Assembly: GCF_040183065.1 (NCBI RefSeq)
Contig: NC_091123.1
Coordinates: 108,846,821-108,910,820, forward strand
Direction: 5' to 3'
From: Periplaneta americana
Lineage: Eukaryota > Arthropoda > Insecta > Blattodea > Blattidae
Length of the DNA stretch: 64,000 nucleotides
Shown: piece after piece, positions 17,690-62,320 of the stretch
Numbering within the stretch: position 1 is the stretch's first letter
How the letters are laid out: each line of letters opens with the position of its first letter
Translations under genes and position numbers: made by a program
Notes under the pieces: generated by a model
Told to the model about the DNA's origin: nothing
The model's input: the letters and a program-made list of their open reading frames with translations, nothing else
The model's database searches: none

Positions 17690-18577
17690 TGCTTATACAG
17701 AGTGTTGAAAAAGTATCCAATATTTTAGGAGGTGATAGTATGCATCAAAACAAGAAAAAATGTCTAATAAACATGGGTCCTACAACACATACTTTCTGTG
17801 ATCTGAACACTTGTTCACAGGAGATGCTCAATGTGATGTCCATTTATGGCAATGCATTTCTCTGCCCTACAATACAGCAGACTATCAGATAATCATACCG
17901 AGTTGACACCCCTGGCATGGAATACTGATACATCGCAAGGAATACTGAAAACAAAAGTTAAATTGCGGCCATGAGCGGGGTTCAGCAGAGATGATGATGT
18001 TAATTTTCGCAATCAAATTTTATTCCCATAGTTGAAGAAATAAAGTATCAGCACCGATTCTCAGTCAACGTATGGGCAGGCGTTCTTGGCGATAGATTAA
18101 GGGCCATGCGTGCTACAACAGATATCATTATCAGGACTTTCTTATTAACGTATTGCCCACCTTGCTGCAGTGTGTGCCATGTCAGCAAAGACTAGGCCCC
18201 TACAGATGTGGTTCATGCATGATGGCATACCAGCAAATTTTTTTCGCAATAGCGTGAACACCTGACGCTGACATTTCAGGACTGCTGAATTGATTGTGGA
18301 GGCCCCACACCTTGGCCTGCTCGTTACCCAAACCAAAATCCCCTAGACGTTTGGTTATCAAGAACAACCAGGTCAATTTCAAAGAGTCGTGAAGGGCAGA
18401 GGAATGCATTGCCATAAATGGGCGTCACATTGAGCACCTCCTACGAACAAGTGCTCAGGTTTCAAAAAGTATGTGTTGTAGGACCCATGTTTATTAGACA
18501 TTATTTTCTTGTTTTGGTGCATACTATCACCTCCTAAAATAGGCCTATTGGATATTATTTTTAACACCCTGTATAAG
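17690..18577 (+). mobile_element. Mariner-like element with long (about 180 bp) terminal inverted repeats
   Basis: The left arm (about 17690-17880) and right arm (about 18400-18577) are inverted copies (cttatacagggtgtt ends; aggaggtgatagtatgca core). Between them, in the plus direction at about 18040-18400, frames in different phases resemble a mariner DDE transposase: HRFSVNVWAG, then WFMHDGIPANF, then FWL-like segments, with stops and shifts. It is a defective internally decayed copy. The arms differ by substitutions and by an extra GGCCTA at 18542-18547. Confidence 0.8.
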
Positions 18578-18594
18578 AAAGGCTTGGGTTTCCG

Positions 18595-18735
18595 ATCCCT
18601 GAGGCTTATCAGAATACTTGTCTGCGGATGGAACCTGGCCCTGTCAGGGCTGAGGCATGATTGTCTCACGGTTAGAATTGGATTCACAAATGTCACCCAG
18701 GCCACCTGTCACACTTGGACAATCATCGCATAGAC
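18595..18735 (+). repeat. Dispersed repeat shared with 14038-14175
   Basis: Same family as the earlier block; it directly abuts the mariner-like element, which may have inserted at its edge. Confidence 0.55.
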
Positions 18736-19033
18736 CTATTTTACAACGCACAATAGGTCAAAGACTGCCCATGTGCTCTCTAAAAACTAAGCAAACATTT
18801 CAGCCTATATAGAAAAATAGAACATTCACTTCCCAAAACGGTTTATTCATCTCACTTAACCCTCGAATTTAATTTTAAAATTACTTCCACAGGGAAAATG
18901 TTTTCGTCTCTGTAAAAAATAATGTTCCTCCGTCCAAGCCTACTCAATGTGACTATTTTTACTAGCGTCTTTGTTACTACTTATAAATTTAATACTTTAC
19001 AAAATAAAGTTTTGAATATTAGACCTATTGGCC

Positions 19034-19094
<61 letters not shown>
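19034..19094. repeat. (TTA)n microsatellite
   Basis: About 20 units immediately before the repeat at 19095. Confidence 0.95.
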
Positions 19095-19253
19095 TAGTAA
19101 ACTGTCCGATGATAGGTTTGAATCTCACAAGTGAAACCAATATGGCATCACTCATGAGGAAACTAAATCAGGAAATAGTGGGGTAGTTCCTTTCTCCTCC
19201 ATTGCATAGCCTACATCATTGAATAGATACATATTTCACTAATCAAACTTCAG
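19095..19253 (+). repeat. Dispersed repeat, family also present at 39851-40030
   Basis: It shares tttagt-aactgtc-gaaga, cctcacaagtgaaaccaa, actcatgagg-aact and tccattgcata with the copy at 39851. Both follow a T-rich or TTA-rich run. (ATT)n follows at 19254-19300. Confidence 0.75.
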
Positions 19254-19254
19254 A

Positions 19255-19298
<44 letters not shown>

Positions 19299-19300
19299 CT
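19254..19300. repeat. (ATT)n microsatellite
   Basis: About 15 units. Confidence 0.9.
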
Positions 19301-19366
19301 ATATTCTGAAAAATCATATACATAAAGTAAATTAATAACACAATAATAATAATAATACTGTAATAG

Positions 19367-19368
19367 TA

Positions 19369-19410
<42 letters not shown>
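19367..19410. repeat. (AAT)n microsatellite
   Basis: About 14 units. Confidence 0.9.
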
Positions 19411-20135
19411 TTTCTCACGAAAACGTTTTTATAAAATTGTACGCTTGTAAGCTTATATTCGGTATACTTTGTCCTTCAGGGCAACCCCTATTTTCGGGGA
19501 AGTTTGTTTAAATAAAAAATAAATATTATTATTATTATTTCTATTATACTTATCATTAGGCTATGTCTTGTAGCATAATATTTGTTGAGTATGATGTTAT
19601 TCAATTGACATTTAATAATTTATTACTATTTTGGTTCTTAGTTTAACAGGCCTATAACTAGTAAGGATTTAATAACTTAAAAAAATAATTAATTGTAATT
19701 CAATCAATATAAATAATGTGAGGAAACGCTCTTGATTATATTATTAATTTTAATATAATTTTATTTAGTTTGATATATAATGTTCCGAATGTTTAAATAA
19801 TTTTATAAATTTTTCTTTAATACGAGTAATTGCCAATTCCTATTCTAATTAATGTAAGTATTTCCGTAAAAACTATTCACGTTCTTCTGTCTAATATAAA
19901 TTTGGGTCGCCGTACTTCTATGTTATTTAATACAGGCCTGATCGTAATATATCGAGGCTAATCTGTTTTTCTGACATCTCATTGAATAGACTTCAGATGT
20001 CAAATATTGGCACAGAGTGCTATTTCACCAATCTCTGATACATAGGCCTATGCTACTGTCGTGATAGAACATAAACATTAATTCCTAGAAATTATACAGG
20101 TCTCTTCAACACACATTCACTAAAGTATAGTCTAA

Positions 20136-20732
20136 AGGTAAGCGTTCACTACATCGTATCGCACTCCTCGTACGAATCACACGCAACGGATATTTTAAGT
20201 GCAGTGTTTTTACTATAACTGCTCTACTTCATTGTCTGATCGGATTCTCTATCAGTTGTTTAAAACATTTGACGTACGATACTGACTTTGTTGAAAACAG
20301 AGGAGTTTTGAGGTTAGGTCTATTAATCATGGGTGTTAGCGAATAAGAATTTGTAATTGTTTCATGCTTCTTAATTGAAGAGGAAGAAACGAAAGAGTTA
20401 TTGGTTACATAATGTATATGTAAGAAACGACTTGATTACTGTAATGGGAGTACCTCATATTATATAATTCTTCGCAGTTTTCTACAAGCGAAATAAGTTT
20501 TCCGTCTACCATTTTGGCGCGACACTGAACATGGCACAACATAGTAACAGTTGAGCAATTAAAATTGATTTATTAAAGAAGGTCATGACCGCACGCATCG
20601 GAAAAGTTGCTCATCCGAGAAACGTGGACGGATTTACCGAGAGCCGTTGCGTGCGATACGATGTTACCTAACAAATACAGCAAAGATTGTCTTTTTCCGA
20701 TGAGTGCGATACAATGTAGTGTACGCTTACTT
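20136..20732. mobile_element. PIF/Harbinger-like MITE, 597 bp
   Basis: Terminal inverted repeats of about 30 bp start A(G/A)GTAAGCGT(T/A)CACTACAT and are flanked on both sides by TAA (20133-20135 and 20733-20735). A 3-bp TWA target duplication is the hallmark of PIF/Harbinger elements. The interior is non-coding. Confidence 0.75.
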
Positions 20733-20739
20733 TAATACG

Positions 20740-21715
20740 GCATTACCGAGGAATTAAATGTCGAAACACACTTCACACTAACTTCTTCTGAAAGTGTTAG
20801 ATAAGATTCCGCTATCTTGGATTTGGAATAACTTAGGATATTTTACACACCACAGTATTATTATTTATTACGTGTGTTGTTTGTAATATATTTATTGGTC
20901 TCATTTGCGTTTTGTTAAGGGTGTCAGTAGTAACATGAATGTCGTGATTTCTGGATTTCTAAGCATTGCTTAATACTCGATCATAATCCTCATATGAGTG
21001 AAGACGGAACGGACCAAAGGAACCAAACCTTGAAGGTCGATAGTGATAATCATGAATATAATTATTCTTTGTCAATAAATATAGACTTTTTAGGCTTTTC
21101 TACTTTCGTATGTGTCGCGAGATGGAGAAAATGAATCCAGAAACTTAGAAAATATCTGCAATGATTTATACGATTATAACTTGCATAGCTGGGTGTAGGC
21201 CTATATTACGTGCCTGTTTCTCTATTCTTATATCGAAGCAACTTGGACTCTTGACGAATGGAACACTGATTTTGATCGCTTCAAGAAACAAATATTACTC
21301 TTCTATCAGTAGATAAAAGGCAGCGATAACGATATCTGTATTTGCGAACGTAATCTGCACTTTCTGGTCATGTTTGAGGACACAAAGACTGTGATAATTC
21401 TGCGAAGTACATCCCATTTTATATAAAATTAGCTCTAATTACTGAACACAAGACAATGTCCATCTCTTACAATCCGCTATTCATGCTTTCAGAACCAAAT
21501 ATTGTACATTACTAAATAAAACTTCAAGAGTCTTAACACAATGATAATACCTTCTATTTTAAACTTCCTTTTTATGTAAGACCTTGAAATAGGCTATGTA
21601 GCTTCCACCGTCGTATAAGTACCTGCTTTCCCACGAAACATTTGGTCTTCCAAGTAATTATTTTCTTCCTGGATAATTCGGACTATTAGGCAGTTGTTCA
21701 CTCGACTGTCCCTCC
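20740..21715. other. No gene recognised
   Basis: AT-rich, unique-looking sequence downstream of the vnd gene. Confidence 0.4.
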
Positions 21716-22460
21716 TTTATTCTTTCTCTGGCGCAAATTAAAATATCTTGTACTTGAAATAGTTATGGAATATTCTGATTTCCTGTCCTTCCTTTCATCA
21801 ACGGATCATTCAATGAAAACTGTTTATCAGAACGTGCATCTATCGTATGATGTTATTGATCTCATACTGTATTCTGATTTTTCTGTCAAATTACAAAAAG
21901 TCTTCCACAGAAATTTGATTTTGACATTCGATCTCGAGATCTAGGCCTAAAATAGTCGTTACATTTATGTAATATATTTCTGATAATATATTATAATTTA
22001 GTCAAAATACACAAACTAAAAGAGCATTCAGTTATTTTCAGATGTTCTCATTACACATTTTGGATCAAGAACATAAAATATTAGTTTTTCCTGGTTCTCG
22101 AGGAGTTTTTCCCAAGCACATACCACCGCATACTAACACACCCATTTTCTAATGTCTCTTAAAACATATTTCGTGAAACTCTCTCATATTTCTTTCCCTC
22201 TGAATTCCTAATAGTTTAACAAAGGATATACTTTCACATGTCTGTAACATTTACCAGTTCACAAACAAGTAAAGACGTCCTTCAACCATCAGTCATTCCA
22301 ACTCTTTGAGCCTCAAAAGGGACATGAAGACAACTCGCCACCATTCTCAACTACGAACAAAGAGTTCTCTGAAGAACTCATCCCAGCAAGCAATCCGTTT
22401 TATATCGGGAACACGCGTATCGTTCAGCCAAATGCTTGACTTCAGAACCCGTAAACTTTA
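21716..22460 (-). other. Presumed 3' untranslated region of vnd with candidate polyadenylation signal
   Basis: No repeat is recognised directly after the stop codon. The first minus-strand AATAAA I find downstream of the stop is at 21721-21716, about 740 bp away. It is a chance-prone hexamer in AT-rich DNA, so the end of the transcript is a guess. Confidence 0.25.
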
Positions 22461-22766
22461 CTACCACCAACCACGGGGATGAGGCTGTTGATGATGAGGG
22501 TGTATGAGGGGATGAGAATACGAGGGCATCACGAGATGTGGATGTGAGGGGTGGGGGAGGTGCTGTTCCCCTGGGGGTTGTTGTTGTCCCTTCGCTCCTC
22601 CTGTACAGGGCTTGCCGTCCCTTACCAAAACAGGAACAGCCACTCTTCGCGGGGAGGGTAGCGTCGTGACCCCTGCACCTCCGTGGCTGCCGTGAGGGTC
22701 ATGCAACCCCTTCTCTTGTTGGGCCCGTTTCGTTTTGTATCGGTGGTTCTGGAACCAGATTTTCAC
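22461..22766 (-). CDS. vnd: vnd/Nkx2.2 homeobox gene, terminal exon with recognition helix and NK2-specific domain
   Basis: Exon of 306 bp including the stop codon on the minus strand. The acceptor is ttgttacag|gtgaaa at 22767/22766, phase 0, joining exactly to the Q44 codon of the previous exon. It encodes helix 3 ([16 protein letters not shown]) with W48, F49, Q50, N51 and the NK2-diagnostic Tyr54. Tyr54 is the residue that gives NK2 proteins their CAAG-core DNA preference (family knowledge). Codons 39-54 (about 22652-22605) encode the NK2-specific domain, [15 protein letters not shown]. The rest is a Gln/His/Pro-rich tail ending in Gly-Trp-Trp; vertebrate Nkx2.2 also ends in a Trp-containing tail. 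Homeodomain intron 44/45 is a position shared by several homeobox classes. No frameshift or stop interrupts it, so the gene looks functional. Confidence 0.95.
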
Positions 22767-22845
22767 CTGTAACAAAAGATAAAATAGACAAATTAAAATA
22801 GCGGAACGTGGAATACAAGCACTTTCAATTCTTTACTTTATTTAT

Positions 22846-22920
22846 TTATATTTGTTTGCTTCTTATTTATTTATTTATATTTGTTTCTTTCTTAGTTATT
22901 TATTTATATTTATTTGTTTC

Positions 22921-22983
<63 letters not shown>

Positions 22984-22987
22984 TTTT
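22846..22987. repeat. (TTTA)n tract
   Basis: Degenerate then perfect TTTA units inside the homeodomain-splitting intron. Confidence 0.95.
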
Positions 22988-23212
22988 TGGCCTCATTAAC
23001 CATAAAAGTGTATGTATTGACAAGTCAGATTTACATTAGATCAAAACTCAATATTAATTAACTGATCTACACTGTAGAGTGGATTCGTGAACAATGCTTC
23101 TTTAAGATAAAAACTTATTTACTTCTTATAGGCCTCTGCATAGATAAAGAATTATAAAATTTATATGATATGCGTATAAAACTATTAATTGTAGTCCTAT
23201 AGCCTACTTTTA

Positions 23213-23215
<3 letters not shown>

Positions 23216-23251
<36 letters not shown>
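23216..23251. repeat. (TA)n microsatellite
   Basis: About 18 TA units. Confidence 0.9.
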
Positions 23252-23253
<2 letters not shown>

Positions 23254-24079
23254 CTCACAGATCTTTTATGAAGAATAAACAACTTGGAAACCGCAGTATA
23301 ATTACTCCACAGAAGGACCCCGTAACTTACGTAACTAGGTATAGGCCTAAAATATGAGAATAATTAACCGTAAATAAAATTTTTGTAGGATAAAGTTTGT
23401 CAAAGAACACGTAACATGAAAATTGTTTTATTAATTTTATTAACAAGATATTTAAAGTTTGTCCTTCAGTCGAGACTTGCTTCGAGATGAATACCAAGAA
23501 ACTTAACTGAGGAGAACAAGTCGTTATTCTAATATTTCTGTTAAATGAAAATTAATATCTACAGTTTTATTAGAATTGTTAATATTGAGTTAACTGGTAT
23601 CCCATCAATGTTTTATCGTAGGCAATAAATTGTAAGTTCCTTTTTCATTAAGACATCATTCTTCTGAGAAAGTCTAAGTGCCCAAATCATCAGAAGAAAA
23701 GAGTGTTGAGGCATTCATAATTGAAGACTGAACATAAAAATTGCTGTAGGCCACAATGTGTGGCAATATCTTTGAAAATTAGTTTTTCCAAAAAAAAAAA
23801 AAATGGTCAATGTCCCTGGCTCAATCCACTAAGTTCCATTGTAATTTAATTTAGAACCTATCTTCTCCCATAGATGTGCAAAACGTATGATATTACATTA
23901 CTAATTGCAGCAGAAAGCCCTGTTATCTATGATTTTTCCCTTTGGCACTTAGGCCTACAGCCTTCTTTATGTCCAATCTTAAAATGAGACATTGCACCAT
24001 GACAATAAACAGATTGGTGTCTACCTGTTAAATAAGAATTTTAAAAACATAATATCTACAGTAGGCCTACTGTTAGAAT

Positions 24080-24260
24080 TATTAAAACAATAAAATAGGC
24101 TATCAGCTTTTCTGAAATAATATCATGGGAAATAGTGTCAAAAGCTTTGACAAAGTCGTAAAAATGGACCACCATTAACTTTGACTTCTCTAACGTACCG
24201 AAGCATATTTTCCCCACAAATTGTGAGCTTTCTTTCCAAAACTATACTATCTCCAAAATT
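24080..24260 (-). mobile_element. LINE reverse-transcriptase fragment
   Basis: On the minus strand one frame reads VHFYDFVKAFDTISHDII, the catalytic motif A block of non-LTR reverse transcriptases. Only about 60 codons survive; the fragment is opposite in orientation to the LINE end that follows it. Confidence 0.75.
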
Positions 24261-24311
24261 TGCAAAATAATACTAAATCTGTGTGAATTCTTAATGTAAT
24301 TTTTTCCATAA

Positions 24312-25068
24312 CTAATTAAATTCCTTGCGAAGTCTAAATGAGATAGCAGAGCAAGTGAACAGCTTCAAATACTTGGGATGTAGACCTACAACAAGCATTA
24401 ACATGAGCTGCTGCCATGAAGTCAAAAGGAGGATAGCAATAGCTAATAAAAAAGGAGCATCTTCTGCGGATCTCTGGAAAAAAATTAAGGAAGAGACCGG
24501 TGAAGTGCTTTGTGTGAAGTGTGGCTTTGTATGGGGCAGAAACATCGACATTACGACGAAATGAAGAGAAACGAATAGAAGCATTTGAAATTTGGATATG
24601 CAGAAGAATGGAGCGTGTGAATTTGACATACAGAGTGAGAAATGAAGTTGTGTTGGAAAGAGTGGGTAAAGAAAGAATGATGCTGAAACTGATCAGAAAG
24701 AGAAAAAGGAATTGGTTGGGTCACTGGCTGAGAAGAAACTGCCTACTGAAGGATGCACTGTAAGGAATGGTGAACGAGAGAAGAGTTCGGGGCAGAAGAA
24801 GATATCAGATGATAAACGACATTAAGATATGTGGACCATATGCGGAGACATTAATAGGAAGGCAGAAAATAGGAAAGATTGAAGAATGGTGGATTTGCGG
24901 TGAAAGACCTGCCCATGGGCAGAACACTTATGTATGTATGTATGTATGTATGTATGTATGTATGTATGTATGTATGTATGTATGTATGTATGTATGTATG
25001 CTCTGTATATATGTATATAGGCTATGTATGTATGTATGTATGTACATACGTACGTATGTATGTATGTA
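24312..25068 (+). mobile_element. LINE 3' end (family A) with (TGTA)n tail
   Basis: Frames encode EQVNSFKYLGC, a CCHEVKRRIAIANKKG segment, LYGAETSTLRRNEEKRIEAF, KRKRNWLGHWLRRN and VRGRRRYQMINDIKI, the conserved post-RT region of a LINE I associate with cockroach/termite genomes. The frame shifts near 24560. The copy ends in gcccatgggcagaacact followed by about 135 bp of TGTA repeats (24930-25068). It is a 5'-truncated dead copy; related copies lie at 43655-45340 and 52564-52715. Confidence 0.85.
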
Positions 25069-25422
25069 ATTAAATCCATAGCAAAAATGAGCTACTTTCT
25101 TTCCATGAAACTACAATAAGTTATATGCTATCTACAGGACCGCAAATAAATTCTCTAAGAGGAACAAAATTAACTTACATGAAAAATAACGCAAGTATAA
25201 ATTCCTATTTGATTTTTGCTTGTAGCGATGGCAGCAGAAATTCGCGTTTCCTCTAAAAAGAGGTTTTTGGAGATAGTGAGTTTTGGAAAGAAAGCTCACA
25301 AATTTAACTATAGCTTCAGTTGAATTGTGGGAAGATCAAAAACTGTAACTTACTGATAAATAAACAGACTTTCGCTTTACCGGGTAGACTCGTATAGGCT
25401 AATTGATACAGAATATTCGTAC

Positions 25423-25892
25423 CTGTGTGGGCGTGAGGCGGATGATGCTGGCCAGGTGCTCCCTCTCGGGTGCCGACAAGTAGCGCTGCTGTCTGAACCT
25501 CCGCTCCAGCTCGTAGGTCTGCGCCTTGGAGAAGAGCACGCGCCGCTTGCGTTTCTTGCCGGCCCCCGGCTGCGTGCCGCCCTGGCTACCCGACTCCTGG
25601 TGCCCCTCGGACTCCATCTCGGGGTCGTCCTCCTCGGTGTCCAGCATCTGGTCCTCGCTATCCTGCCCCATGACGGGCGCCCTGATCAGCGCCTGAGGAA
25701 GAGTACTAGACGAATCGGGTCCGGGGCCCCCTGAGGGGCTGTTGGGACCCTGTCCGTGAGGGGGGAAACTGTCCAGAGACACAGAGCTCGAATGGAGGTC
25801 TGGGTCTTGGTCCGGACCTCCTCGGCCGGGGTCTGGGGGCGCCAAAGAGCTGGGCGATGTGCTGTCAGGACTCACCTGCTGTTGTTGGGCTC
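25423..25892 (-). CDS. vnd: vnd/Nkx2.2 homeobox gene, exon with acidic region and homeodomain residues up to Q44
   Basis: Exon of 470 bp on the minus strand. The acceptor is tgatttcag|gagcc at 25893/25892 (phase 1) and the donor cacag|gtacga at 25423/25422 (phase 0). Order of the product: Gln-run and Ser/Pro/Gly-rich linker, an acidic stretch ([17 protein letters not shown]), then a basic KKRKRR entry and homeodomain residues 1-44 at about 25557-25423, including [20 protein letters not shown] and LTPTQ. This is the NK2.2/vnd sequence type rather than NK2.1/scarecrow, which has a different start to helix 1. A NK2.2-class protein is a nuclear DNA-binding transcription factor; in insects vnd specifies the ventral neuroectoderm column (established knowledge). 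The codons are GC-rich against AT-rich flanks. Residue 37 is Ile where fly and vertebrate proteins usually have Leu, a conservative change. Confidence 0.95.
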
Positions 25893-26059
25893 CTGAAATC
25901 AATGACATAGTTCTCCATGAAGCTCTACGATGACTATCGTGTTATTTCAGATTGATAATGCTAGTTAAGGGAATGTGTTACAGCTTGTTGCTGCTCTAAA
26001 GTGTTAGATCACATGTGATACATGTAGGCCTACTGAAGTAGGCCATATTGTATTGCCTC

Positions 26060-26528
26060 AATAGAACTTCGATCCTGGCAGAACAAAATGAGGTTAAACT
26101 CATCCGGGATCTGGGTACCAGGGCATTGTGTTATTGAGGGAAATGAAAGAGCTGACGAACTTGCAAGACAAGGAGCGGCTACAAAATATATTGGACCAGA
26201 GCCGGCTCTCGGAATAGCTAGGTGTTCTGTCATTGTATTCCTCACCTGACGTAATTAGGAACATTAAATCCAGACGTTTGAGATGGGCAGGGCATTTAAC
26301 ACGTATGCGCGAATCCAGAAGCTTATAGAGTGTTATTTGGAAGGCCGGAGGGAAAAGACCTTTGCAGAGACGGAGACATAGATGGGAGGACAATATTAAA
26401 ATGCATTTGAGGGAGATGGGATATGATGATAGAGACTGGATTAATTTTGCTCATGATAGGAATCGCTGGCGGACTTATGTGAGAGCGGCAATGAACCTCC
26501 GGATTCCTTAAAAGCCATTTGTGTATAT

Positions 26529-26579
<51 letters not shown>

Positions 26580-26580
26580 T
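26060..26580 (+). mobile_element. LINE 3' end (family B) with RNase H remnant and (TTTA)n tail
   Basis: Frame pieces around 26107-26230 resemble an RNase H domain (PGHCVIEGNERADELARQG type), with shifts. They are followed by RRLRWAGHLTRMRESR and RHRWEDNIKMHLREMGYDDRDW at 26270-26510. The copy runs into (TTTA)n at 26523-26580. RNase H is typical of some LINE clades. The same terminal motif is present on the minus strand at 33385. Confidence 0.8.
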
Positions 26581-26929
26581 ACAAACGTTAAACGAACGTT
26601 TCACAATAAAGTCAGAACTCAAACTAATGGACGGGTGAATATCGCTCTTAAAATGAGTTTAAAATCGACAATGCACAATATTTAACATCTGCACTGCCGA
26701 ACTGTCAAAACAACCTTTTCAATATATTTCACAAGAACTTAATTTTTTGAGACTGTGTCGGCTTCATTTTAATACAAGGTCGGTACTAGGTGGAAAGTCT
26801 CTATAATAAAGATATCATAGCTATAATTCTAACATGCCGCAGCACCAAGCATAGGAATTATATTAAACGAGTGGTAGGAGGATTATCCCTGATGTCGATA
26901 TAGATTTTGTTACTCTGACAGTGAAAAAT

Positions 26930-28104
26930 TAGAGAAGGGAAAACGATTATGGATTAAAAAATAATTATTCAAATCTAAATATGTATTTAAAAAAAACTAT
27001 GTTAAATTAGTTAGAAAATAACAGAATGCAATTGCAAAATTTATCGATTTTATAAAAGTCTTCGACAACGTACTTCGTAGTAAATTATAAATATTATGAT
27101 AAATGGATACCAAGAACATTGATTTTAGACTAACTCTAAAAAAATATGTAACTACATACTAAAATATTGTGATAAGAATAGATACCGTACACCAAAACAT
27201 AATCAAGAGTAAGACAGGGCTACCTATCGTCTTCCACTTTGTTTAATACCGTAGGATATATAGACGCAGCTGTTTCCGAATATAAATGAACATTAAGAGA
27301 TAATTTTAAAATAGCAACTACAGTTTTAAATACACTATATTGTTATTTGTTGATGATCGGGTAATAATTGAGAAGTGAAAGGATCAATTTACAGTTAGCT
27401 ATAAATTAATTCAACTAAGTAAAATAATGAATGAATGTAATCTCAACATATACAACAAAAACAATAATTATGGCTTTCTGGAGTAGGCCTAAGCTTCAAG
27501 TAAGATGCAAGATATCAATTAACTTAAAATTGATAATGAAAATATTGAACAGGTTCAAAACTTTACCAATGAATTAGAATACGATGTGTCTTGTATTTAG
27601 CCTATGAGAAAGACTAAAAATGGCAAAATAGGCCTAGGCCTAATTAAGTTTCAGACAATATTAAGATCGTTAAAGAAGAAAAGACACAAAGATGAAACTT
27701 TACAAGTAAACTAATGGCGGTACCCATGTAGATGTATTAATCGGAAAATTGGGTTATGAAAAGATCAGGCAGAAGAAGGATGGAAATAGTAAAAAGAAGA
27801 ATGGAAATAGTAAAAAATAAAGTTTCTGCGGTCAATTACTGGATAATTATTCCTGCACAGATAACATCAGAAAAGGAACAGTCTGAGAGCAGTTGACACA
27901 TTTAACTTAAACGAAAAAAACAGGGCTAGGCCTAAACAAGGAAAAATAATATGAAAGCATTCCTCGGATGGAGCCTACCAGGTATTACAACATAACCCTG
28001 AAGGTACTGAAGGTAATCGGGATATCGGAAGATCTGGTCGCCCATGCGAGAATGACCTCTGAGACAGAACGAGACTGACGGCTCACCGTGAAGAAGAAGA
28101 ATAA

Positions 28105-28135
<31 letters not shown>

Positions 28136-29211: not shown

Positions 29212-29254
<43 letters not shown>
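29212..29254. repeat. (ATC)n microsatellite
   Basis: About 14 units. Confidence 0.9.
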
Positions 29255-44834: not shown

Positions 44835-44835
44835 T

Positions 44836-51529: not shown

Positions 51530-52470
51530 CAAGTAATTCAAACTTTCTGTACTACAGCAAACTTTTCTGGACAGATGGGTAAAAAGAAAAGACAAATAGG
51601 CACACTCTTATCTGTTCAGCACTACAACATTAACAGTTTGCAGAGAAAAGTTCCACAACTAGAAACCTATCTGAATGACAACTGTGCTGAATTCTGTGAA
51701 TTAATGAACGCTACTTAAAAAAACACCTTCTTGATTTAATTTCTATTGGCAGTTATACATTAACAGCTTATTATTATCGTTCGTCTCTTAAAAGAGAAGG
51801 TGTGGCAATATTTTTTACACAGAAACCATCTTGCATTTCCATTTTTTCAATATCAGAATTCTGCATAGACAAACACTTCGAGGCTGCCCCAACAGAGGCA
51901 ATTGTCCTCAAAATATATTATTGGTTCTCAGCCAATAAATTAGTATTAAACTGCAACAAGACTAACATAATCCAATTTAAATTCTGCCCAAATTCAACCT
52001 CGCAAATTTCAAGCGCAATAACTAACAATAGGTCCCTAATAGAAACAACAACCAAATTTCTTGACTTACAAATCGATAGGCTAATGTATTAAACTGAAAA
52101 ATCATATTAAAGAAATTACCCCCAAACTAAATTCAGTATTAGATCTAATCTATGCAAGATATAGTAAATATCAATATCTTAAAAACAATATAGACTACTT
52201 TGCATACTTCCACTCGTAATGAGTTTTGGAATAATATTCTGGGGAAGTTCTACAGATATCAACAGTAGGTTATATTGCTACTTCAAAAAAAAGTAATTAG
52301 AATAATGGTAGGTACCAAATCTAAGGAATCGTGTAGGACCAATAAAAAAAAAATACAATATTAATGCCCATGCCTTGTCAGTATATTTCTTCATTAATAA
52401 ACTTCCTCGTATGTAATCGTGAAAACTTTGTAACTAATTCAACAGTTCATATGTAGCATAAATACTCGTC
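51530..52470 (+). mobile_element. Internally deleted LINE: endonuclease start joined to RT C-terminal region
   Basis: The N-terminal part (51573-51715) reads VQHYNINSLQRKVPQLETYL, the start of a LINE apurinic-type endonuclease. After a frameshift it continues to about 51900 (EGVAIFFTQKP). It then passes directly to the region after RT motif C (YYWFSANKLVLNCNKTNIIQF, 51925-51995) and a tail with SFGIIFWGSS. The bulk of the endonuclease and RT catalytic motifs is missing. Confidence 0.75.
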
Positions 52471-52563
52471 AAAAATGACTTATATTCCATTGACAAGTCT
52501 ATCGTGTTATCAAAAAGAAGTGCGGTAGGCCTATAGGTATGACAGCAACATTTTTTAATAAAC

Positions 52564-52715
52564 TCATTCATTCATTCATTCATTCATTCATTCATTCATT
52601 CATTCATTCATTCATTCATTCATTCATTCATTCATTCATTCATTTATTCTAGTGTTCTGCCCAAGGGCAGGTCTTTCACTGCAAACTCAGCTTTCTCCAG
52701 CCTGCCTTCCTTATG
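52564..52715 (-). mobile_element. LINE family A 3' terminus with (AATG)n tail
   Basis: On the minus strand gtgaaagacctgcccttggg and cagaacact match the 3' end of the copy at 24890-24930, then run into about 80 bp of AATG repeats (52645-52564) where the other copy has TGTA. Confidence 0.8.
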
Positions 52716-53035
52716 GATATAAAAAATCAAACTCAAAACATAAGATTATTTAGGGTCAAATTAAATAGTACCTAATTTCTCACGCCTTCTATTCTGTAGA
52801 TGAATTCATGACATTCAACAACACTGAATGAATATTTCTGTCTTATATTAAGTATTGATACTACCTAACTATATTGTAAAACTCTTCTGTATATATTTCA
52901 ACTAGACTGTGACTATAATTAAGACTTTATAGTAGGCCTACTATTAAGATTTTTTTACATGTTCCACATTCTATCTGTGAAGCGATGTACAAATACCATG
53001 GAATTTAAATAAATGTAGGATACAATACAATACAA

Positions 53036-55440
53036 ACTCTGATCACAGACTCCAAAACAATAATTCTCTGCCTCCTATAGGCCCCATAGCCTAGTGGACA
53101 CTTCCCTCTGTTTATCTTTAAATTAAAATTAGTCTTAGATATTCTAATAAAGATATCAAATAATATAGTTATGTTTGGTAATTTCAATGTAAATTTTTAT
53201 ATAAACTGTGTTGATAACAGAAAGAAGCATACTTTCATTGATCTCCTCTCCTGCTACAGCTTGAAGCAAACCGCATTTAGCCCCACCAGAGTGAAAGGCT
53301 ATTCCAAATTTATTATTGATAATATTTTCACAAACTTTCCTCTCCAACATTTAAATTCTTACAACTCCGAACCTGGAATTTCTGATCACTTTATACAATT
53401 TTAAAAAACATACTTAAAATTCAAGCCCAATTACAATATCAGAAATCCAGTTGTGGTAGAAGCGTTCCTTTCCCCCCCGAAGCATTCAGTCGCTTGAACA
53501 TACTTTCAACTTTAGCAAACTGGAATATTAACACGAGCATAAAAATAATGTAGACACAGTATTCTTGGATTAGCTTAGCACTTTGAAGTCGAATTTTTAA
53601 ACTGCATTCCCTTATAAAAAAAAAAAAAAAAGAAATACCTTGGAACCTCGAAGAGCAAACAGATGGATAACCCCTGAAATAAAAACATAGTCGAGCAGCT
53701 TTACGGGCCAAACGACATCCCTATTATCTGGCAATAACTTATATAAAAAGCATAAGACTTCTTACCGCAAGATGTTAAGAAATGCGAAATTGAACTGGTA
53801 CGAAGACAGAGTAACGTATTCGTCTAATTCAACGAAAGAGCTGTGGAACATTATAAATGAAGGCAGTTAGAACACCACTAATAATAAACTAATTATAATA
53901 TAATGCGGTTAAAGTTAAACTACCTGTCCCCTTTCAATTGTAACGACATTGAACGACCATGTTCTTAATGTCCCCACTCCTCTCATGTTTACTAATGTAA
54001 ATTATCTTCCTACTTTTACCTATCAAAATTCAATGGCATGTCATAAAGTTTCAGAAAAAGAAGTCTTGCTAGTAATTAAAAAACTAAAGAATACCTTTTC
54101 GTCTGATAAAGACGAAATACCTCCATTTCTTATTAAAAAGCTTGATCCACTAACAGCTAGAACTCTCACCCCGCTCATAAATCTGTCCCTCACTGCAGGC
54201 ATGTCTCCTTCATCTTTAAAGTAGCGGTCATAAAACCCCTCTACAAAGGCGGGGAGAAAACAAGTCCAAACAACTATGTTATACCACCCTGTCGCTCTTT
54301 TACCGGCAGTTTATCTGAAAATCATCATGGTTTCATATCCAAAACAAACCTAAGAAAAAGGGGGTAGGTTCAACTCTTGAAAAATTAATCGAGACTTAAA
54401 TCAAGGATATAAAATATTGACTATATTTGTGGATTTATCAAAAGCGTTTGACAGCATTAATCACGATATTCTTCTTCAAGAAATTTATATAATTACGGCA
54501 TCCGAGGTCCAGTGCACAAATGGGTTAAATCTTACTTAAGTAACAGATATCAAATTGTTGAAATAGATCTCAGGAATGGAAAGTTCCGGTCACCAAGTAA
54601 AGAAAATGCCAAAGGGATCCTAGAAGGCTCTTTGATCGGACCTCTCTTGTTCTTATTTTACATCAATGATCTTCCGTTAAGTCTATCAAATGCTAATGTA
54701 ACGATGTTTGCTGACGACTGTACCTTCATTCTTCGCGAAAATTCGGTACAAGAACTCTACTCTACTGTCTCTCGAACTGTGATAGATTTTGACAACTGGT
54801 GTGCTAGAAATCAGCTCATGATTAATACTTCCAGAACTGAATTAATATATTTCAAGTCCAGTGTCATCTACTGGCAAGCAGCACAATATTTTTATTGAGG
54901 AAGCCTCAACTTGTATATTCCTCGGTCAGACAATCAACACTTATTTGAATTATAAAGATCACGTGCACCATCTCTCAAATCAACTTCAAATTCCGCCTTT
55001 CTCATCTCTAAATGTAACAATACTGCAGCAGGAAAACTCTTATGTTTTGATATACATCTATTCCAGGACAAAACAGGCTACAATATAATCTCTTGGGGTG
55101 CAGCAGACCAATACTTAATAGATAGAATTCTTGTCCTACAAAAACGAATAACTGGAACCATTTTCAAAATTAAACCTCGCGATTCTTGCAAACGTCTGTA
55201 CAAAGAATAAAAGATTCCAACAGTTCCGTCATTAATTATTTTCGAATGTGCCCAATATGCTTTCAAAGATAAAAATTGATTTATGCGAAGTTCTGATTAT
55301 CATTCTTATGATACTTGAAACAAGAACGCCGTAATTCCTTTCGAAACTCTCTAAGGCATTTCCTCGTAAACTATTATTTTTATAAGTTGGACGAGTAGTT
55401 TGCTTCTTCAGAAACGATATATAAACGGACAACTAATATA
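53036..55440 (+). mobile_element. LINE (jockey/CR1-like) with decayed endonuclease and reverse transcriptase
   Basis: In order: an endonuclease C-terminal part (53171-53404, FGNFNVNFYI, then DNIFTNF), RNAKLNWYEDRV and STKELWNIINEG (about 53775-53870), RT entry (53949-54224, SEKEVLLVIKKLKN, KDEIPPFLIKKL), motif A (about 54420-54465, FVDLSKAFDSINHDI), a VKSYLSNRYQIVEI segment and motif C (54512-54898, PLLFLFYINDLP and FADD). Then comes the C-terminal ISWGAADQYLIDRILVLQKR region. The catalytic DD of motif C survives, but multiple frameshifts and stops make the element dead. Confidence 0.85.
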
Positions 55441-55793
55441 GGTACTCTAAACTCAGCATACATTGTTTTCACATGGCTTTAATCATAGTCCTTATCTCTG
55501 TACCTCCTGCTCTGCTATATCCCTCGATTTATGTTTGCTCTGTTCTGTTACTAGTTCTGTGAGTAATTATTGTTAATTTTAGTTAGTTGTAATTCGCTAG
55601 TTATGAGTAATTGAACATTCATTTTTACTGTAGATGTTAAATTCAGTTAGTTTGTGGGTAATTTGCTAATTAAGTCAAAAATTCCGCTACACTGCTCAGC
55701 TTGTGATTTGTGATTTATTTTACAAATTCATTTGTATTATTGTTAATTTGAGTTAGTTTGTAATTTGCTATTTACTCACTAAAGAATATATTT

Positions 55794-56373
55794 ATGATGA
55801 TCACTTTGACGTGTTAAATGTAAACTAAGTTTGTAAATATCTACGCATACAGAACACAAAACACTCTACAAAAGCATCTCAACACACAAAAACACAAACA
55901 AATACAATCTAACAGATATATTCAAACTCACATGCAATAGCTGCAACAACTTCCACATCGACCAGACAGGAAGATCATTTCAAACACGTTACAAAGAATT
56001 TATCACAGTCATAACCAAATCACAACACATACACATACGCAGAACACATCACAAACAACAACCACGTCTACAGCAACATAGACACGGACATGGAAATTCT
56101 ACATATCCAACGGAGAAACCAGAAACTAAACACCCTAAAACAATACGAAATATACAAACAAACAGACCCGCAACGAATCCTCAATACACAATTGAATTTC
56201 AGAACACACACATTATTTGGCTCCACACTACCTAACACAAACGCACCATCCAGAAAAAAAAAAAAAAACCGGAAGATGCAAGGACCTGACTAATTCTGAA
56301 GATGATTACTACTAAATTGAAACTAGATATTTACAAACTTAGTTTATATTTAACACGTGAAAGTGATCATCAT
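55794..56373 (+). mobile_element. Penelope-like element fragment (GIY-YIG endonuclease) between 49-bp inverted repeats
   Basis: Frames at about 55910-56010 read IFKLTCNSCNNFHIDQTGRS then FQTRYKEF. After a frameshift, 56076-56230 reads NIDTDMEILHIQRRNQKLN, then a LNTQLNFRTHTLFG segment. This is the GIY-YIG endonuclease of Penelope-like retroelements (family recognised from memory). The copy is frameshifted and lacks the reverse transcriptase. It lies between inverted repeats 55794-55842 and 56325-56373, which differ at only two of 49 positions. Confidence 0.8.
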
Positions 56374-56384
56374 CATTATCCTGT

Positions 56385-57060
56385 ATACCTATGTGATATC
56401 AATGAGTGAATGTTGGTTACTATTCACAATTAGAATACGGGTGTGAATAGGGTTGGTGGATTTTTGTCACAATTAGATTATGATACCTATTTACATAATT
56501 TCCCTTGACGCTGCTCCCAGAATGTTCAACGTTTGTTGTTCATAGCAAAAAAAATTAAGATTAAGATGAAATTCAAGATTTAATCGAAAATGTTATTACA
56601 TTAAAACAACCAACACGGTGGCTATTTGCCTTGGTAAACAAACGATCAGATACCTCAAACTTCCTTTAGAGGTCATCATATCATTGCTTCCAGTATTCAA
56701 CAATTTTTTCAACCATGTCGGTATCTATGTTTAATTCCTGTCTGATCTCTTCAAATCGTGTCAGTTCTCGAAATGATCTCATAAATTTAATTTCTGTTGT
56801 TTCTATTATTTCTATTTTATCTGACTCAGTATCCAAAATTCACTCTCATCTAATATAGTTGACTGGAAAACAGCAGGCCTACTTAATTTAATTCAGAGCT
56901 TTGCTAACTTCAATAATAGAAATTTCGGAGTATATTTATTAACTCGATGCCCCCATCATCTACACGTTTGCTAAAGAACTATTAATTCAAAAGAGGATTG
57001 CATGGACTCTCGTTCTTAAGAATATGACGAAGATAAATATAAGAAAATGACATTTTCAAT
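56385..57060. other. No gene recognised
   Basis: AT-rich sequence next to the vnd exon. The block near 56700-56830 may be a minus-strand LINE remnant (cgatttgaagagatcag-like), unproven. Confidence 0.35.
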
Positions 57061-57068
57061 AAACTCAC

Positions 57069-57260
57069 CATGGTCAGTGCTTGTGGTGACTGGTGTGGTC
57101 CAGTGGTGCCTGGGGTGGGGCAGTAGGGGGCAGTGAGGATCCAGCCCCGGAACACCTCCCGGGGCACCGGGGAATAGCACCGTGTGGTGTCCCATAGCCG
57201 CAGCGTAACTCGCGGCTATTGACGTCAGCTCTGGAGGACCGGGAGCCAGTGACATGGGTC
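57069..57260 (-). CDS. vnd: vnd/Nkx2.2-type homeobox gene, internal coding exon upstream of the homeodomain exon
   Basis: Open exon of 192 bp on the minus strand encoding 63 complete residues plus split codons at both ends. The acceptor is a pyrimidine-rich run ending in ctactgcag just above 57260; the donor is catg|gtgagt at 57069/57068. Both ends fall after the first base of a codon, and the exon at 25892 needs exactly that phase, forming a Gly codon across the junction. The product is rich in Pro, Gly, Ala and His (MSLAPGPPELTSIAASYAAA near the start), as expected for the poorly conserved region before the NK2 homeodomain. The local jump in GC content against AT-rich surroundings supports coding. 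Assignment to the gene rests on phase, strand, composition and order, not on a diagnostic motif. An in-frame Met occurs six bases inside the exon, but the entering phase and acceptor suggest the true start is further upstream, outside the window. Confidence 0.72.
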
Positions 57261-57269
57261 CTGCAGTAG

Positions 57270-58360
57270 AAAGAAAGTCTTGCGTTAGATTTCGTGTGAA
57301 CATTCTGACATTAAATTTATGTGTAACTTAAGCACAGTCAGTAGAAAGGTCAGAGCGTCGGCTCTCTACGCTGGAAACTCTAGTTCAATTTCCGGGCAGT
57401 TCTAACCTACTGGACAGATTTCCGAGGGATATTTTCGTTTCTCAAAGCAATCTTTTACAATTTCTCTTTTAATGCATATCAAGTGCAATATCTACGACGG
57501 CCCTGTGTCGTAGAAGTCTGACGCTTGGGATCGGAACCAGAGTGTGACAACCGTCTGCATCTCTCTGTTAAACCCATGGTATGGCAAATATCTCAACGCC
57601 GGTGAGGAATATAGTGAAAAACAGCTCGACAATTGTTGTAGCTGTTCCAATAAAACATCTCTTCGTGAAATTGTGTTTTCTTCCTGTAAACGGTCTCAGA
57701 GAAACTTACTTTCGGGACACCTTGTAATCGAGTAGCCAAAATTTGTATAAGCATTTATTTTGACATTATTAACATAATGGAAGGGAAAAAATTAGCTTTT
57801 TATCTGCTCCCAAGAGAATGTTTGCTTGTTAGCTGGAGGTAAGTTGCACGAACTTAAATCCACAGGCAAATCTCCACGTGTATGGGCGAAAAGTATCAAG
57901 ACTTTCGGTCTTGAGATAAGTCACCAGACTTCTGTGACTTTCTGAATTTTTTCTACTCCAGCGCTCGCCAAATTAAGCGGGATAAAAAGCAAGCATAGTA
58001 GAAAAAAACGATATTGCCAGCTTCTGATTGAGATTTCGTCATTGTTTCGTTTTAAGTAGTTCTCTGTAGCGAAATGGCGGCAGGCTATGAAAGTACAGAC
58101 TTAAAAAACTCTACTCACGCATTTATATCGTACGTAGAGTCATGAAGAAATAGTATTTATCGAGTGATCGCATTTCTCCACGGAGAATTATTGTTTTCAA
58201 TATCCTCTTAAGGCTATTTTGTAAACTATATGTTTAGGAGGTAAGTCTGAGCATATATGAACAATTATTCAATTCAGATATACTTCTATGAGGTAAATTT
58301 GTACAGATAAGTCTCCAATAAGTCTTTGTGTCTAGGTAGCCCTTAAAACTATCCACAGTC
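57270..58360. other. No gene recognised
   Basis: A degraded tRNA-like stretch occurs near 57345-57405. The open frame 57544-57735 has no recognised domain. Confidence 0.35.
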
Positions 58361-58366
58361 ATAGTA

Positions 58367-58488
58367 CAGGGAACATCTTTTAACTGTCCCTGCCGCCAAC
58401 CGGGAACTGCGTCATCAGCGTGTTAGTCACAAGGTCGCCTTGGAACGGGAAGCGGCAACTCTCCGGGACAGTTGAAAGATATTTGCTG
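58367..58488. mobile_element. Small TIR element (122 bp) flanked by TA
   Basis: The left arm starts CAGGGAACATCTTTTAACTG and the right end is its imperfect inverse (about five mismatches in 24). TA lies on both sides (58365-58366, 58489-58490). Its first bases resemble the 1.1-kb transposon ends. Confidence 0.6.
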
Positions 58489-58744
58489 TACCCACCTTTT
58501 GAAATAAATGTAGCCTATTTAAAGAAGAAATGTTTTTTTTTTTAAGTATTGTACAGAATGCACCATAAATGACCGTATCCCTATATTTTGTCATTATATT
58601 TCATGTTTTAGCTTATTTATGTAAATTATAACTTGGAATATCATCTAGTGACGAATAAGAGTATTTTGGCAACAATCATGCGTCGTCACACGAAGAAGGA
58701 CATACAGGTGAGACCATTTCGACATTGTTACCAATGAACATAGA

Positions 58745-59420
58745 GATGGTGATAGCTATAAACAAAGATAGCGGAGCGTGTGCTTTATTATAGGAGTTCC
58801 CATCATTATCTCGACGACATGTCCTCTTTTCGGATGAGTGTGTGATTTACCGTAGCAATCGGAATCATAATATCGTTTTTGGGCAAAGAAAATCCACATT
58901 TCAAGTTGGAATTGTAACACAATCCATCACATGTTATGTTGAAGGCAGGTGTTGCTGCAAATTATATGATTGGGCCGTATATTTTTGAAGACCTGTTAAT
59001 GGAAGAACCTATCTGGAGATGCTTCGAGATTGGTTAATACTCAAATAACTGAAAAAGGAGTTATGGATAAGGTACGGTTGCAAAAGGATGATGCGCCGGT
59101 CCATTTCGCGTTACCTGTTCGTGATTTTCTTAAACGATAACTTTTCAGGAAGGTGGATTGGTCGTGGATCTCCGTTACCATGGCCTCCACAAAGTCATGA
59201 TTTGATCACACCGGACAACAGCCTATGGGGATACATCAAAGAGAAAGTGGCTGGAAATCGCTACCAAACAAACAATGAACTAAAAGATGCTGTGAGAGTT
59301 GCCTTCGCAACCATTACAGCACAGATGTTACGTAAAATGTCACAAAGGACCTGGAGAATATCCAACTCTGCAGATACAACGATAAAGCTCACACAGACCC
59401 TAAGATCAACAGATAATTAG
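58745..59420 (+). pseudogene. Mariner-type transposase remnant, catalytic half
   Basis: Broken frames at 58815-59080 (LFSDECVIYRSNRNHN; later EDLLMEEPIWRCFEI) are followed by an open frame 59088-59420 with FLNDNFSGRWIGRGSPLPWP, PDNSLWGYIKEKVAGNRY and ATITAQMLRKMSQRTW. This is the C-terminal catalytic region of insect mariner-like transposases: LFSDE carries the second acid, and the final acid lies near PDNSLWGY. The N-terminal DNA-binding part is absent and several shifts occur. Confidence 0.85.
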
Positions 59421-59523
59421 GCCTACTACCATCAATGTTAAATCTAGCGGTACAACTCGTAGACTATATGAGCAAAACTCGTCGGTTAGATTAGGATAAA
59501 ATACAGTTTCTACCTTCAAAAGT

Positions 59524-61596
59524 GATATTTCACTCCTGTTCTTATAGCCTACTTACATGAAACCATCTGATGTTTACAAAGGGACCTAATGCTTGTGAAA
59601 AAAATGTTTTTTACTGTAAACCCAATCTCTGTAGGTATATTTGAAACTGCAGATTATGTAACAATTTTTCTGCTATGAAAACTTATTTAAAAAATACATT
59701 TTTTTGTAGGAGAAAAAATAATTACTCCAGAATGAATGTACTTAGATCAATGAATTTTGGGATAGAGTTAGGAATATCTGAAAGGCTTCTTCTGCAAATA
59801 TTACAAATTGTGACACCTCGTTCACGCATTAAAATCCAGATTTTCTCTATTTTCTTTAGGAAAAATTACCATTTTCTAAAATTCTCTTAAGTTTGAAATT
59901 CGCAGCAAATTGATCCCGGACCGCCACTGCCACTGACATCATAACTAGATCTCAGATTTTTAGGCCGTTAGAAATGCACTTTTAGGCACCTGAAATAGGC
60001 TCTAAAAATGGTCAATTACGCACTAAAAATACAAATTTAGGCACCCAAAATACAATTAAAGGTAACTCAAAATAGTTTTTCACACCTAAAATGTGTATCT
60101 ACCTACTGAAATTGCAATAACTGTAGACCCTAATAATTAATATTAGGCATTGCGATGTATTAATTATAGTTACAAGAACAGAAAAATTACTTTGGTTAGT
60201 ATATAGGTTTATTAAAATATCAAATTATATTTCATTAAGTCATTAATTATAATGGATTTGTCTTGTTCTGCAGTAGGTATTAGTGGTATTACTCTGGGCG
60301 CCTTTAGCTTTATGCCCGGAGCCATTAACATGCTAACAAGTGAGATTTTTTCTCTTGTGACACCTAAACGCCAGAAAACAATAGCTATAATTACTCTGTA
60401 ATGTTCGTTATTGATATTAGAGCTGAATTATTGAAATGCACTTGTACCGGTATTTTAAATTAAGTCTACTTCATCTGCTACTGCTACATAGTTCATTGTT
60501 TCGTTTTTATTCAGTATTTACTCACCTCTTTGCAACAATACCAGCTGAATTGTCCCATCATAGGTCAATCCCGAAACTTGTTAGATCCATTGCTTAATTA
60601 GTAAACTTTTGTTTCCTTTCTCCTTCCGCATTACACAATTTCACACAACTTAATTTAAACCTATATAAATTTAGGCTACTCAGTAAAAAGCTGTACTACG
60701 CGCTTAACTTACTATGTGTAACACTTTGCACACTATTCGACTACAGACAAGTAAGAGCCAGTTCGATTCGTGTGCTTTCTTTTCGGCTTCAGAGTCTGTA
60801 TTTTGGGAAATCCAGTTTCCTTATTACCTGCAAAAGTACTGAACAAAGCCAGCAACATTCCAGGAATTTCTTTTTTCCTACAACAAAAGTAATTGAAAGG
60901 TCTGTGATTTGATATTCAAAATTTATAGTATTGCAGCAAAAAAAAAATATATATATATAAGTTATACCCGAAATAGGCACTTTTAGGCTCTAAGGTATTA
61001 AAATAGGTCATAATGAGCAAAATGGGCATTTTAGACGCAATAAAACTTCTATCAGACGTTCATATTTTGTGTGAAACGTGAAGTTATATAAGTAATTTTA
61101 GTTTTGCTCTACAAAAAAAAATTTAAAAAAAAAGGTACTTAGCCTAAAATCCGAGTCTATTCATAAGATTTATTAATACTGATCAGTCAGCTTATTCCCT
61201 TCATTTTGGTAACAGTTATGGAGTTTGCTACAAGTGTGGAAAGGTTAGATTTCTTCCCTGAAAGAACTTAAAAATGGGTCGAAATTCAGGAGGTGGGCGT
61301 GAAATGCCAGATTATTGAGATGTAGAAAAATGACTTGAGATAATATCTAACTCTATCCCAAAATTCATTCATCTAAATAGGCCTACATTCATTCTGGAGT
61401 AATTATTTTTTTCCTACGAAAAATGTAATTTTTCATAACAGAAGAATTGTTATAGGCCTATAGGCTAATCCACAGTTTGAAAGATAGAGAGATTGGGTTT
61501 GCAGTAAAAAAAAAAAGCTTTATTTTTCACAAGTATTTGGTCCTTTTATAAACATCAGGGTATTTCACATAAGTATAAGGGCAGGAGTGAAAGATC
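59524..61596. mobile_element. Fold-back structure: 257-bp inverted arms around 1.56 kb
   Basis: Arm 59524-59780 is repeated in inverted orientation at 61340-61596 (shared words tttcactcctg, aaacccaatctct, ataattactccagaatgaatg, tgaattttgggatagagtta). The interior contains recurring ttttaggcac/ataggctct words at both sides (59955-60065 and 60960-61030) but no coding frame. It may be a long-TIR DNA transposon or two copies inserted in opposite directions. Confidence 0.75.
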
Positions 61597-61599
61597 TCT

Positions 61600-62320
61600 T
61601 CCTAAGGGATGTCCTTAAACTTCTGCTAGACCTGTATATGTATCTAGTATTGCGTAAATATCCTACATCCAATAAGGTTAACGTTCATAACAACACAGGA
61701 CAAATCCAAGACCCAGAACATGCACTCGCTGGATTAGTAGCGTGAAACGCTACCATTTATCCTCAGTAGAGGACTGTACACGAGTCATGTAGTAGAATTT
61801 AAAGCCTTAGTACAGAATTGCTGTGGAATCCGAGAAGGAATATTGATTGCCTTTACTTAACAACGCACTTAATAATCATGCGACTAGGAGTGGGTTGCCG
61901 CCATGAGCTAGGAGGGGATTTTGAAACGTTCTGAAAACTGTAGATGGACGTAGGCAACAAAGAGTAGCCGCAATATTTTATCATGGTCGATACTGAAGTG
62001 AGTCCATTACCTTGCTACGCCGTATCGACAAGTGCGAAGGTAAGGATAAAAAGCGGCTAAAGTTTACAGCTGCCCTTTACTTTGTGTTAGGTACGAAGTC
62101 TACCAAATGTCTGAAGTTTATTTTGTGAGAGGAAGTATAATGTTTAATCGTTCACAAGGAGTTTGAATTGCACAATTTCCTTTGCTAGTGAAATATAAAA
62201 TTCATGACGTTTCTTAGGTTAAAGGTAGACCTATATTGATCTTATGGTTTAAAGGGGGGAGAACAAAAATATCGTACTCCTGAGTTCGTACTTCTGTATG
62301 TAATATTATGGTGCTGGTTA
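61600..62320. other. No gene recognised
   Basis: No domain-bearing frames or repeats recognised. Confidence 0.35.

Follow-up and report, generated by a model that had tools for sequence, protein, structure and literature searches.

Probable excision scars of TA-targeted transposons with GGG...CCC ends in the genome of the cockroach Periplaneta americana

Introduction

PIF/Harbinger transposons generate a 3-bp TWA target duplication. For elements that target the dinucleotide TA, the closest descriptions, all taken here from excerpts of the respective reports, include those of Stowaway and Osmar5, members of the Tc1/mariner group in grasses, which leave TA-enclosed footprints of a few terminal bases in several forms (PMC1925063). 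Footprints of Tc1/mariner elements are given as 2-4 bp, and those of ZB in cell assays as 0-3 bp (PMC7913693). Passer, a member of the pogo superfamily that is listed in the cockroach Blattella germanica, left footprints of 0-4 bp in cell assays (PMC9976928). In rice, 21 and 31 mariner excisions were classified by comparing two genomes (PMC4423477), and piggyBac excises seamlessly from its TTAA target (PMC7351741). Here, we analyzed a stretch of 64,000 bases from the cockroach Periplaneta americana (“the window”; AT-rich, without N), in which the palindrome TAGGCCTA, i.e. GGCC between two TA dinucleotides, is strongly over-represented. We have good confidence that this word and its relatives TAGGCTA/TAGCCTA, TAGACCTA/TAGGTCTA, TAGGGCCTA, and TAGGGGCCTA were left by the excision of cut-and-paste transposons that target TA and have GGG...CCC ends.

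The window was analyzed together with 20 spaced 10-kb stretches of the same genome (L002-L021; 195,187 readable bases) and nine further loci (L022-L030). Seven of the latter lie in C1:29.98-30.06 Mb and were picked because L003, in the same region, was dense in the words under study; the other two are on C12 and C13. The combined set of the window and 29 loci comprises 349,187 readable bases in 30 sequences of one genome, and the results below refer to this set unless the window is named. L001, the start of contig C1, was excluded from later counts.

Results

Over-representation of the word and spectrum of its forms

The window contains 51 copies of TAGGCCTA, compared with Markov expectations of 0.67 (order 1) and 0.84 (order 2). 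At orders 3, 4, and 5 the expectations are 2.6, 15.7, and 37.9, respectively, but these values are derived from segments of the word itself and thus depend on it. By order-2 score it is the top 8-mer of the window when words of period 1-4 are excluded, and 19 other palindromic 8-mers of equal base composition occur 0-3 times each.

Related words were grouped by the number of bases kept at each end between the two TA dinucleotides, and were counted in 354 kb (including N) in both orientations against the order-2 expectation. The 2+2 form (GGCC) was observed 105 times with 3.5 expected, the 2+1 form 111 times (28.5 expected), the 1+1 form 88 times (58.6), and the 2+0 form 188 times (149). Among the longer forms, the values are 8 for 3+2 (1.35 expected; seven of the eight in the window), 5 for 4+2 (0.26), and 6 for 3+1 (5.5), while 3+3 has a count of 0. 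Where a single base separates TAGG from CCTA, it is G (C on the other strand) at eight sites, and A or T at two. The trimming series peaks at two bases per end and grows by G only. This addition of G in the longer forms suggests source ends of GGG or longer that would normally be cut about two bases in.

The words TAGACCTA/TAGGTCTA are also enriched (34 vs. 7.1 expected), whereas TAGATCTA is at its expectation (4 vs. 4.9). The change to GA is thus one-sided, as expected if one base were lost and an A added.

Three other derivations of these words were considered. Decay of TAGGCCTA to TAGGCTA is disfavoured, because the substitution neighbours AGCC, TGCC, CGCC, GTCC, and GCCC are near expectation; single sites may differ. 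GA-ended elements are disfavoured as the source of TAGACCTA, because symmetric GA...TC ends should yield the word found at expectation. GGCC as a four-base palindromic overhang was set aside, the longer forms being GGGCC and GGGGCC.

The base preceding the TA has a bias common to the GGCC, GGC, and GACC words: C is low and G is high. T is depleted before the TA (0.22 vs. 0.33). This depletion bears on telomerase-assisted joining, in which a broken TA end would gain GG on a TTAGG template, and both ends would be blunted and joined as TAGG+CCTA. Such a product is a head-to-head telomere repeat, and the first 10 kb of C1 (L001), apart from 7,500 N, is rich in TTAGG-type repeats. But T is not favoured before the TA, and the longer forms extend by G and not by TT, so that the added bases do not follow TTAGG. 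For these two reasons a telomerase origin was set aside as very improbable.

Insertions between repeat copies

The initial annotation had listed five pairs of repeat copies as the same site with and without a six-base insertion at a TA. Alignment agreed with this description for pairs 1 and 2 (Table 1). The insertion is also present in pair 3, in which the bases just downstream differ, and in pair 4, an inverted pair with one adjoining C/T difference. In pair 5 the insertion stands, but CA takes the place of the first TA in the long copy, so that the described pattern is seen only in part. Pairs 3, 4, and 5 are outside the strict automatic filter that was applied to the whole set.

For this filter, insertions of 3-10 bp were called from an all-against-all alignment, requiring six or more matches among the 8 bases on either side and 8 columns free of any further gap. 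The 667 distinct clean sites between repeat copies include 28 TA-x-TA insertions of the footprint series, with x being GGC/GCC (11), GGCC (7), GG/CC (3), GACC/GGTC (2), GAC (2), GC (2), or GGCCCC (1). GGCC between two TA, as originally proposed, is real, but is one form among several. Among 71 insertions of 5 bp, 13 belong to the GGC/GCC or GAC class and 6 are of other TA type; for the 88 insertions of 6 bp, the respective values are 9 (GGCC or GACC) and 2. A further 20 insertions (4-8 bp, with GGC, GCC, GACC, or GGTC) failed the TA test. By eye, some of them are of the same kind with an adjoining mismatch (e.g. 44648, 45260, and 61377), and others are of a different kind (e.g. L012:6057 and L023:2160).

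Insertion at sites other than TA and an ancestral long form had been named at the outset as outcomes contrary to the excision reading, and neither was found in the material examined. The 28 paired sites are all at TA by construction of the class; the remaining 15 dinucleotides, tested as targets, gave no comparable insertion class. An identical insertion recurs in the aligned copies at none of 31 filled sites (the 28 plus 44645, 45242, and 61378), and at least one length-matched empty alignment exists for 29 of them, all but 18193 and 59632. Ten sites have at least four empty alignments, up to 25; these are counts of binned alignments, the larger ones being approximate. Two sites are not clean evidence of polarity, i.e. 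L024:1858 (TAGGCTA), at which one aligned copy carries TAGGCCTA, and L026:5730 (TAGACTA), at which other copies read TAGACCA and TAGCTA. The absence of identical insertions from the aligned copies shows the long form to be derived and the empty TA to be ancestral.

The insertions also bear on the possibility that TAGGCCTA is a functional palindrome, e.g. a protein-binding site, that point mutation and selection have maintained or spread. In favour of this, it is a palindrome with a high density around a homeobox locus, but the paired copies differ by entire insertions of 5 or 6 bases at TA, many of them in transposon or LINE copies, and forms of unequal length are enriched too. We regard this explanation as scarcely credible and the least probable of those considered.

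A 9-base TA class, ATGTTCC (9 sites), was not counted, because its flanks are similar and it resembles variation within a single repeat family. This 9-base difference at TA, including near forms, is found at L006:5243, L009:6867, L011:6494, L015:3903, and L016:8925.

Candidate source elements

TA-bounded inverted repeats of 60-6,000 bp were sought, with the requirement that the first five bases agree, that 15 of 18 match, and that the outer flanks differ. The scan yielded 43 rows, including nested and low-complexity ones. The most frequent three-base ends are CAG (5), GGG (5), TTT (4), and TTA (4). All five rows with GG ends have GGG, are flanked by TA, and possess terminal inverted repeats (L004, L015, L022, L024, and L025). 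In total, seven copies of GGG elements in four families were found. No Pfam model matched the fragments of L004; a fragment of L004:8292-9192 considered to be a psq-type helix-turn-helix (pogo-like) was withdrawn for lack of a Pfam match. An apparent 2.1-kb GGG element at L004:4410-6516 was dropped, its interior being a patchwork of other repeats.

The CAG class includes a 1.1-kb TA-flanked element with CAGGG ends (window 50035-51139 and 43719-44835, with copies in L019, L020, and L025), which is the element behind pairs 2 and 3 and has no match in a phage collection. The CAG-ended elements (window 50035-51139 and L019:4209-5416) resemble the GGG class in having TA-flanked inverted repeats and a matching enriched footprint, TACAGTA/TACTGTA. 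However, the enrichment is weaker, about twofold (146 vs. 78 expected), and the footprint has three bases instead of two plus two. The best link between elements and scars is that this one genome has two classes of ends and two of footprints, which is a correlation.

The elements also bear on a transposon-free micro-insertion, in which an enzyme would break TA and an end-joining or polymerase step would add GG to both ends. This would fit with scars far outnumbering recognizable GGG elements, and with an element-bearing allele being seen at no scar in the one genome. But it leaves unexplained the growth by G only (3+2, 4+2), the trimming series, and the existence of TA-flanked GGG elements, all of which are expected of transposon ends, and the CAG class behaves likewise. 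Micro-insertion is therefore judged improbable. The excision footprint suggested by the initial annotation is supported and preferred because of the derived polarity, the TA sites, the two-base peak of the trimming series with growth by G, and the TA-flanked GGG inverted-repeat elements.

Scale and distribution

Nine footprint strings occur 263 times in total, of which 105 are in the window and 68 in the 20 spaced loci. Their chance rate from order-2 expectations is about 0.115 per kb, which leaves an excess of about 1.5 per kb in the window, 0.23 per kb in the spaced loci, and about 220 words overall, compared with the seven GGG element copies. As decayed elements are missed by the scan, the scar-to-element ratio should be read as an upper estimate. 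Extrapolated to the 13 contigs (2.52 Gb), the spaced rate would correspond to about 0.6 million scars. This figure gives the order of magnitude only and is based on 20 loci, in which the counts run from 0 to 13 words per 10 kb.

The regional density ranges from 0 to 26 footprint words per 10 kb. It has a weak negative correlation with repeat coverage (Spearman -0.35, p 0.035, 37 segments), and 71 of the 263 words are in repeat-covered sequence, while repeats make up 39% of the bases. In window 8-48 kb and in C1:29.99-30.05 Mb (L003, L022, L024, L026, and L027), the words reach several times the density of most spaced loci.

Coordinates and further features of the window

Table 1. Positions of probable scars, unoccupied TA sites, and GGG elements. 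Positions without a locus name are those of the window; “empty” and “identical” refer to length-matched aligned copies.
Feature	Position	Evidence
Unoccupied TA, pair 1 (mariner arm)	17721..17722	alignment, sequence
TAGGCCTA scar, pair 1	18540..18547	2 empty, 0 identical
Unoccupied TA, pair 2 (1.1-kb element copy)	50597..50598	sequence, alignment
TAGGCCTA scar, pair 2	44288..44295	4 empty, 0 identical
Unoccupied TA, pair 3	50962..50963	sequence, alignment
TAGGCCTA scar, pair 3	44645..44652	alignment; 1 empty, 0 identical
Unoccupied TA, pair 4 (fold-back arm)	59739..59740	sequence
TAGGCCTA scar, pair 4	61378..61385	1 empty, 0 identical
Unoccupied TA, pair 5 (LINE copy)	24813..24814	sequence, alignment
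CAGGCCTA, scar with altered first TA, pair 5	45260..45267	outside TA test in insertion list
TAGGCCTA scar, clean, second in the pair-5 LINE copy, absent from the initial annotation	45242..45249	4 empty, 0 identical
TAGGCCCCTA, 4+2 form	18193..18202	paired insertion; no length-matched empty alignment
TAGCCTA, 2+1 form	19207..19213	paired insertion
TAGACCTA form	24381..24388	paired insertion
TAGGCTA, 2+1 form	33735..33741	paired insertion
TAGCCTA, 2+1 form	40093..40099	paired insertion
TAGGCTA, 2+1 form, in the 1.1-kb element copy empty at pair 2	50705..50711	4 empty, 0 identical
TAGGCTA, 2+1 form	52077..52083	paired insertion
TAGACTA form	52191..52197	paired insertion
TAGCCTA, 2+1 form, fold-back arm	59545..59551	paired insertion
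TAGGTA, possible 2+0 form, weakest class	59632..59637	paired insertion; no length-matched empty alignment
TAGGCCTAGGCCTA, two scars with a common TA	27629..27642	sequence
Remaining 44 TAGGCCTA	span 5282..63820	word sequence alone
Starts of these 44, first part	5282, 12816, 13781, 14874, 16398, 16556, 20043, 21196, 21942, 23342, 23950, 24062, 26025, 27484, 27927	
Starts of these 44, second part	29010, 29112, 29316, 29688, 30331, 32922, 33019, 33347, 33371, 36502, 36611, 37793, 37939, 39124, 39529	
Starts of these 44, third part	39787, 40698, 40794, 42403, 42626, 45709, 46387, 52526, 52933, 59418, 61453, 62526, 63400, 63813	
GGG element, palindromic 217-bp family	L015:967-1183 and L022:3576-3793	94.5% identical pair
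GGG element, 222 bp	L024:8768-8989	partial relative in L027, 88%
GGG element, 626 bp	L025:6491-7116	relative in L018, 93%
GGG element, 901 bp	L004:8292-9192	

Parts of an NK2-type homeodomain gene lie on the minus strand at 22461-22832 (just under the Pfam cut-off) and 25399-25941 of the window. Among the best 120 protein hits, the top match that carries an organism name is a protein of the termite Cryptotermes secundus (80% identity over 92%), followed by one of the cockroach Diploptera punctata (60% over 97%). Degenerate, GAA/GGA-rich 60-base tandem repeats occupy 10786-11952. No tRNAs and no Rfam matches were found in the window.

Discussion

We infer that GGG-ended elements are the makers of the scars, by the following steps. 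A GGG...CCC transposon would insert with duplication of TA, and upon excision the transposase would cut each 5′ end about two bases in, leaving TAGG on either flank. End joining would then fill and seal the gap to give TA-GG-CC-TA, or would trim one base to give TAGGCTA, or would trim one base and add an A to give TAGACCTA.

Several observations weigh against this reading. The inverted-repeat scan found no GGG element in the window, though the scars are densest there. GG is only fourth among the two-base ends of the 43 rows (TT 9, CA 6, TA 6, GG 5), and GG and GA ends had been looked at specifically before that scan. With laxer settings, only 5 of 337 inverted-repeat rows were GG-ended, one of the lower rates per TA, and repeat boundaries showed no enrichment of GG (10 hits). 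Neither an autonomous GGG element nor a transposase with such ends was found in the 349 kb, and no single locus with element, scar, and empty TA was seen in them. Concerning the words, the G flank bias is not clearly present for GAC, GC, and the few longer words of the GGGCC type, the few 3+2 and 4+2 forms could partly be altered GGCC, and the GA form requires an additional step.

That the sampled GGG families themselves are the scar source is somewhat favoured, with less assurance than the excision reading as such. The scars might instead stem from other GG-ended TA transposons, extinct or unsampled, as the known copies are few compared with the excess of words and none of them is in the window. 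But the sampled families carry the required ends, and three of the four have copies that are 88-94% alike, and we consider this alternative possible but unlikely.

The excess of scars over elements may reflect regulated excision, abortive transposition, or long ordinary turnover. A more speculative idea, which we think rather doubtful, is that the GGG-ended TA transposons are a clan of near-obligate visitors, which insert and are almost always removed, perhaps by regulated germline excision, leaving scars on the order of half a million and few residents. An excision scar would then be the most over-represented 8-mer of the window outside simple repeats. The excess makes routine removal of elements testable.

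If the excision reading is true, past cut-and-paste transposition can be counted from scars where the elements are gone, which is missed by repeat annotation based on element copies. The scars would be polarized markers, with the empty TA as the ancestral state, and would form an extensive natural collection of the ways in which defined DNA ends were joined.

A literature search covering titles and the openings of abstracts found neither TAGGCCTA as a genomic feature nor excision footprints on this scale. Excision footprints are a known kind of sequence.

The piggyBac pattern, as outlined in the excerpt used, is not seen, as the cockroach sites have a TA target with scars. The 3-bp TWA duplication of PIF/Harbinger is likewise not found; the paired sites show a 2-bp TA. 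In ZB and Passer the footprints are short, as in the cockroach, and from the excerpted descriptions the comparison is one of length. The cockroach words share with those of Stowaway and Osmar5 a TA duplication around a few terminal bases in several forms; however, the excerpt of that report deals with single loci, whereas the cockroach words are spread at 0 to 26 per 10 kb and have GG...CC ends. Three features of an IS630-Tc1-mariner/pogo footprint are present. The 2-bp TA is duplicated around the footprint at the 28 paired sites, the cockroach series lies within the range of up to about four terminal bases given in the excerpts of PMC1925063, PMC7913693, and PMC9976928, and TA-flanked inverted-repeat elements that bear these bases exist in the same genome.

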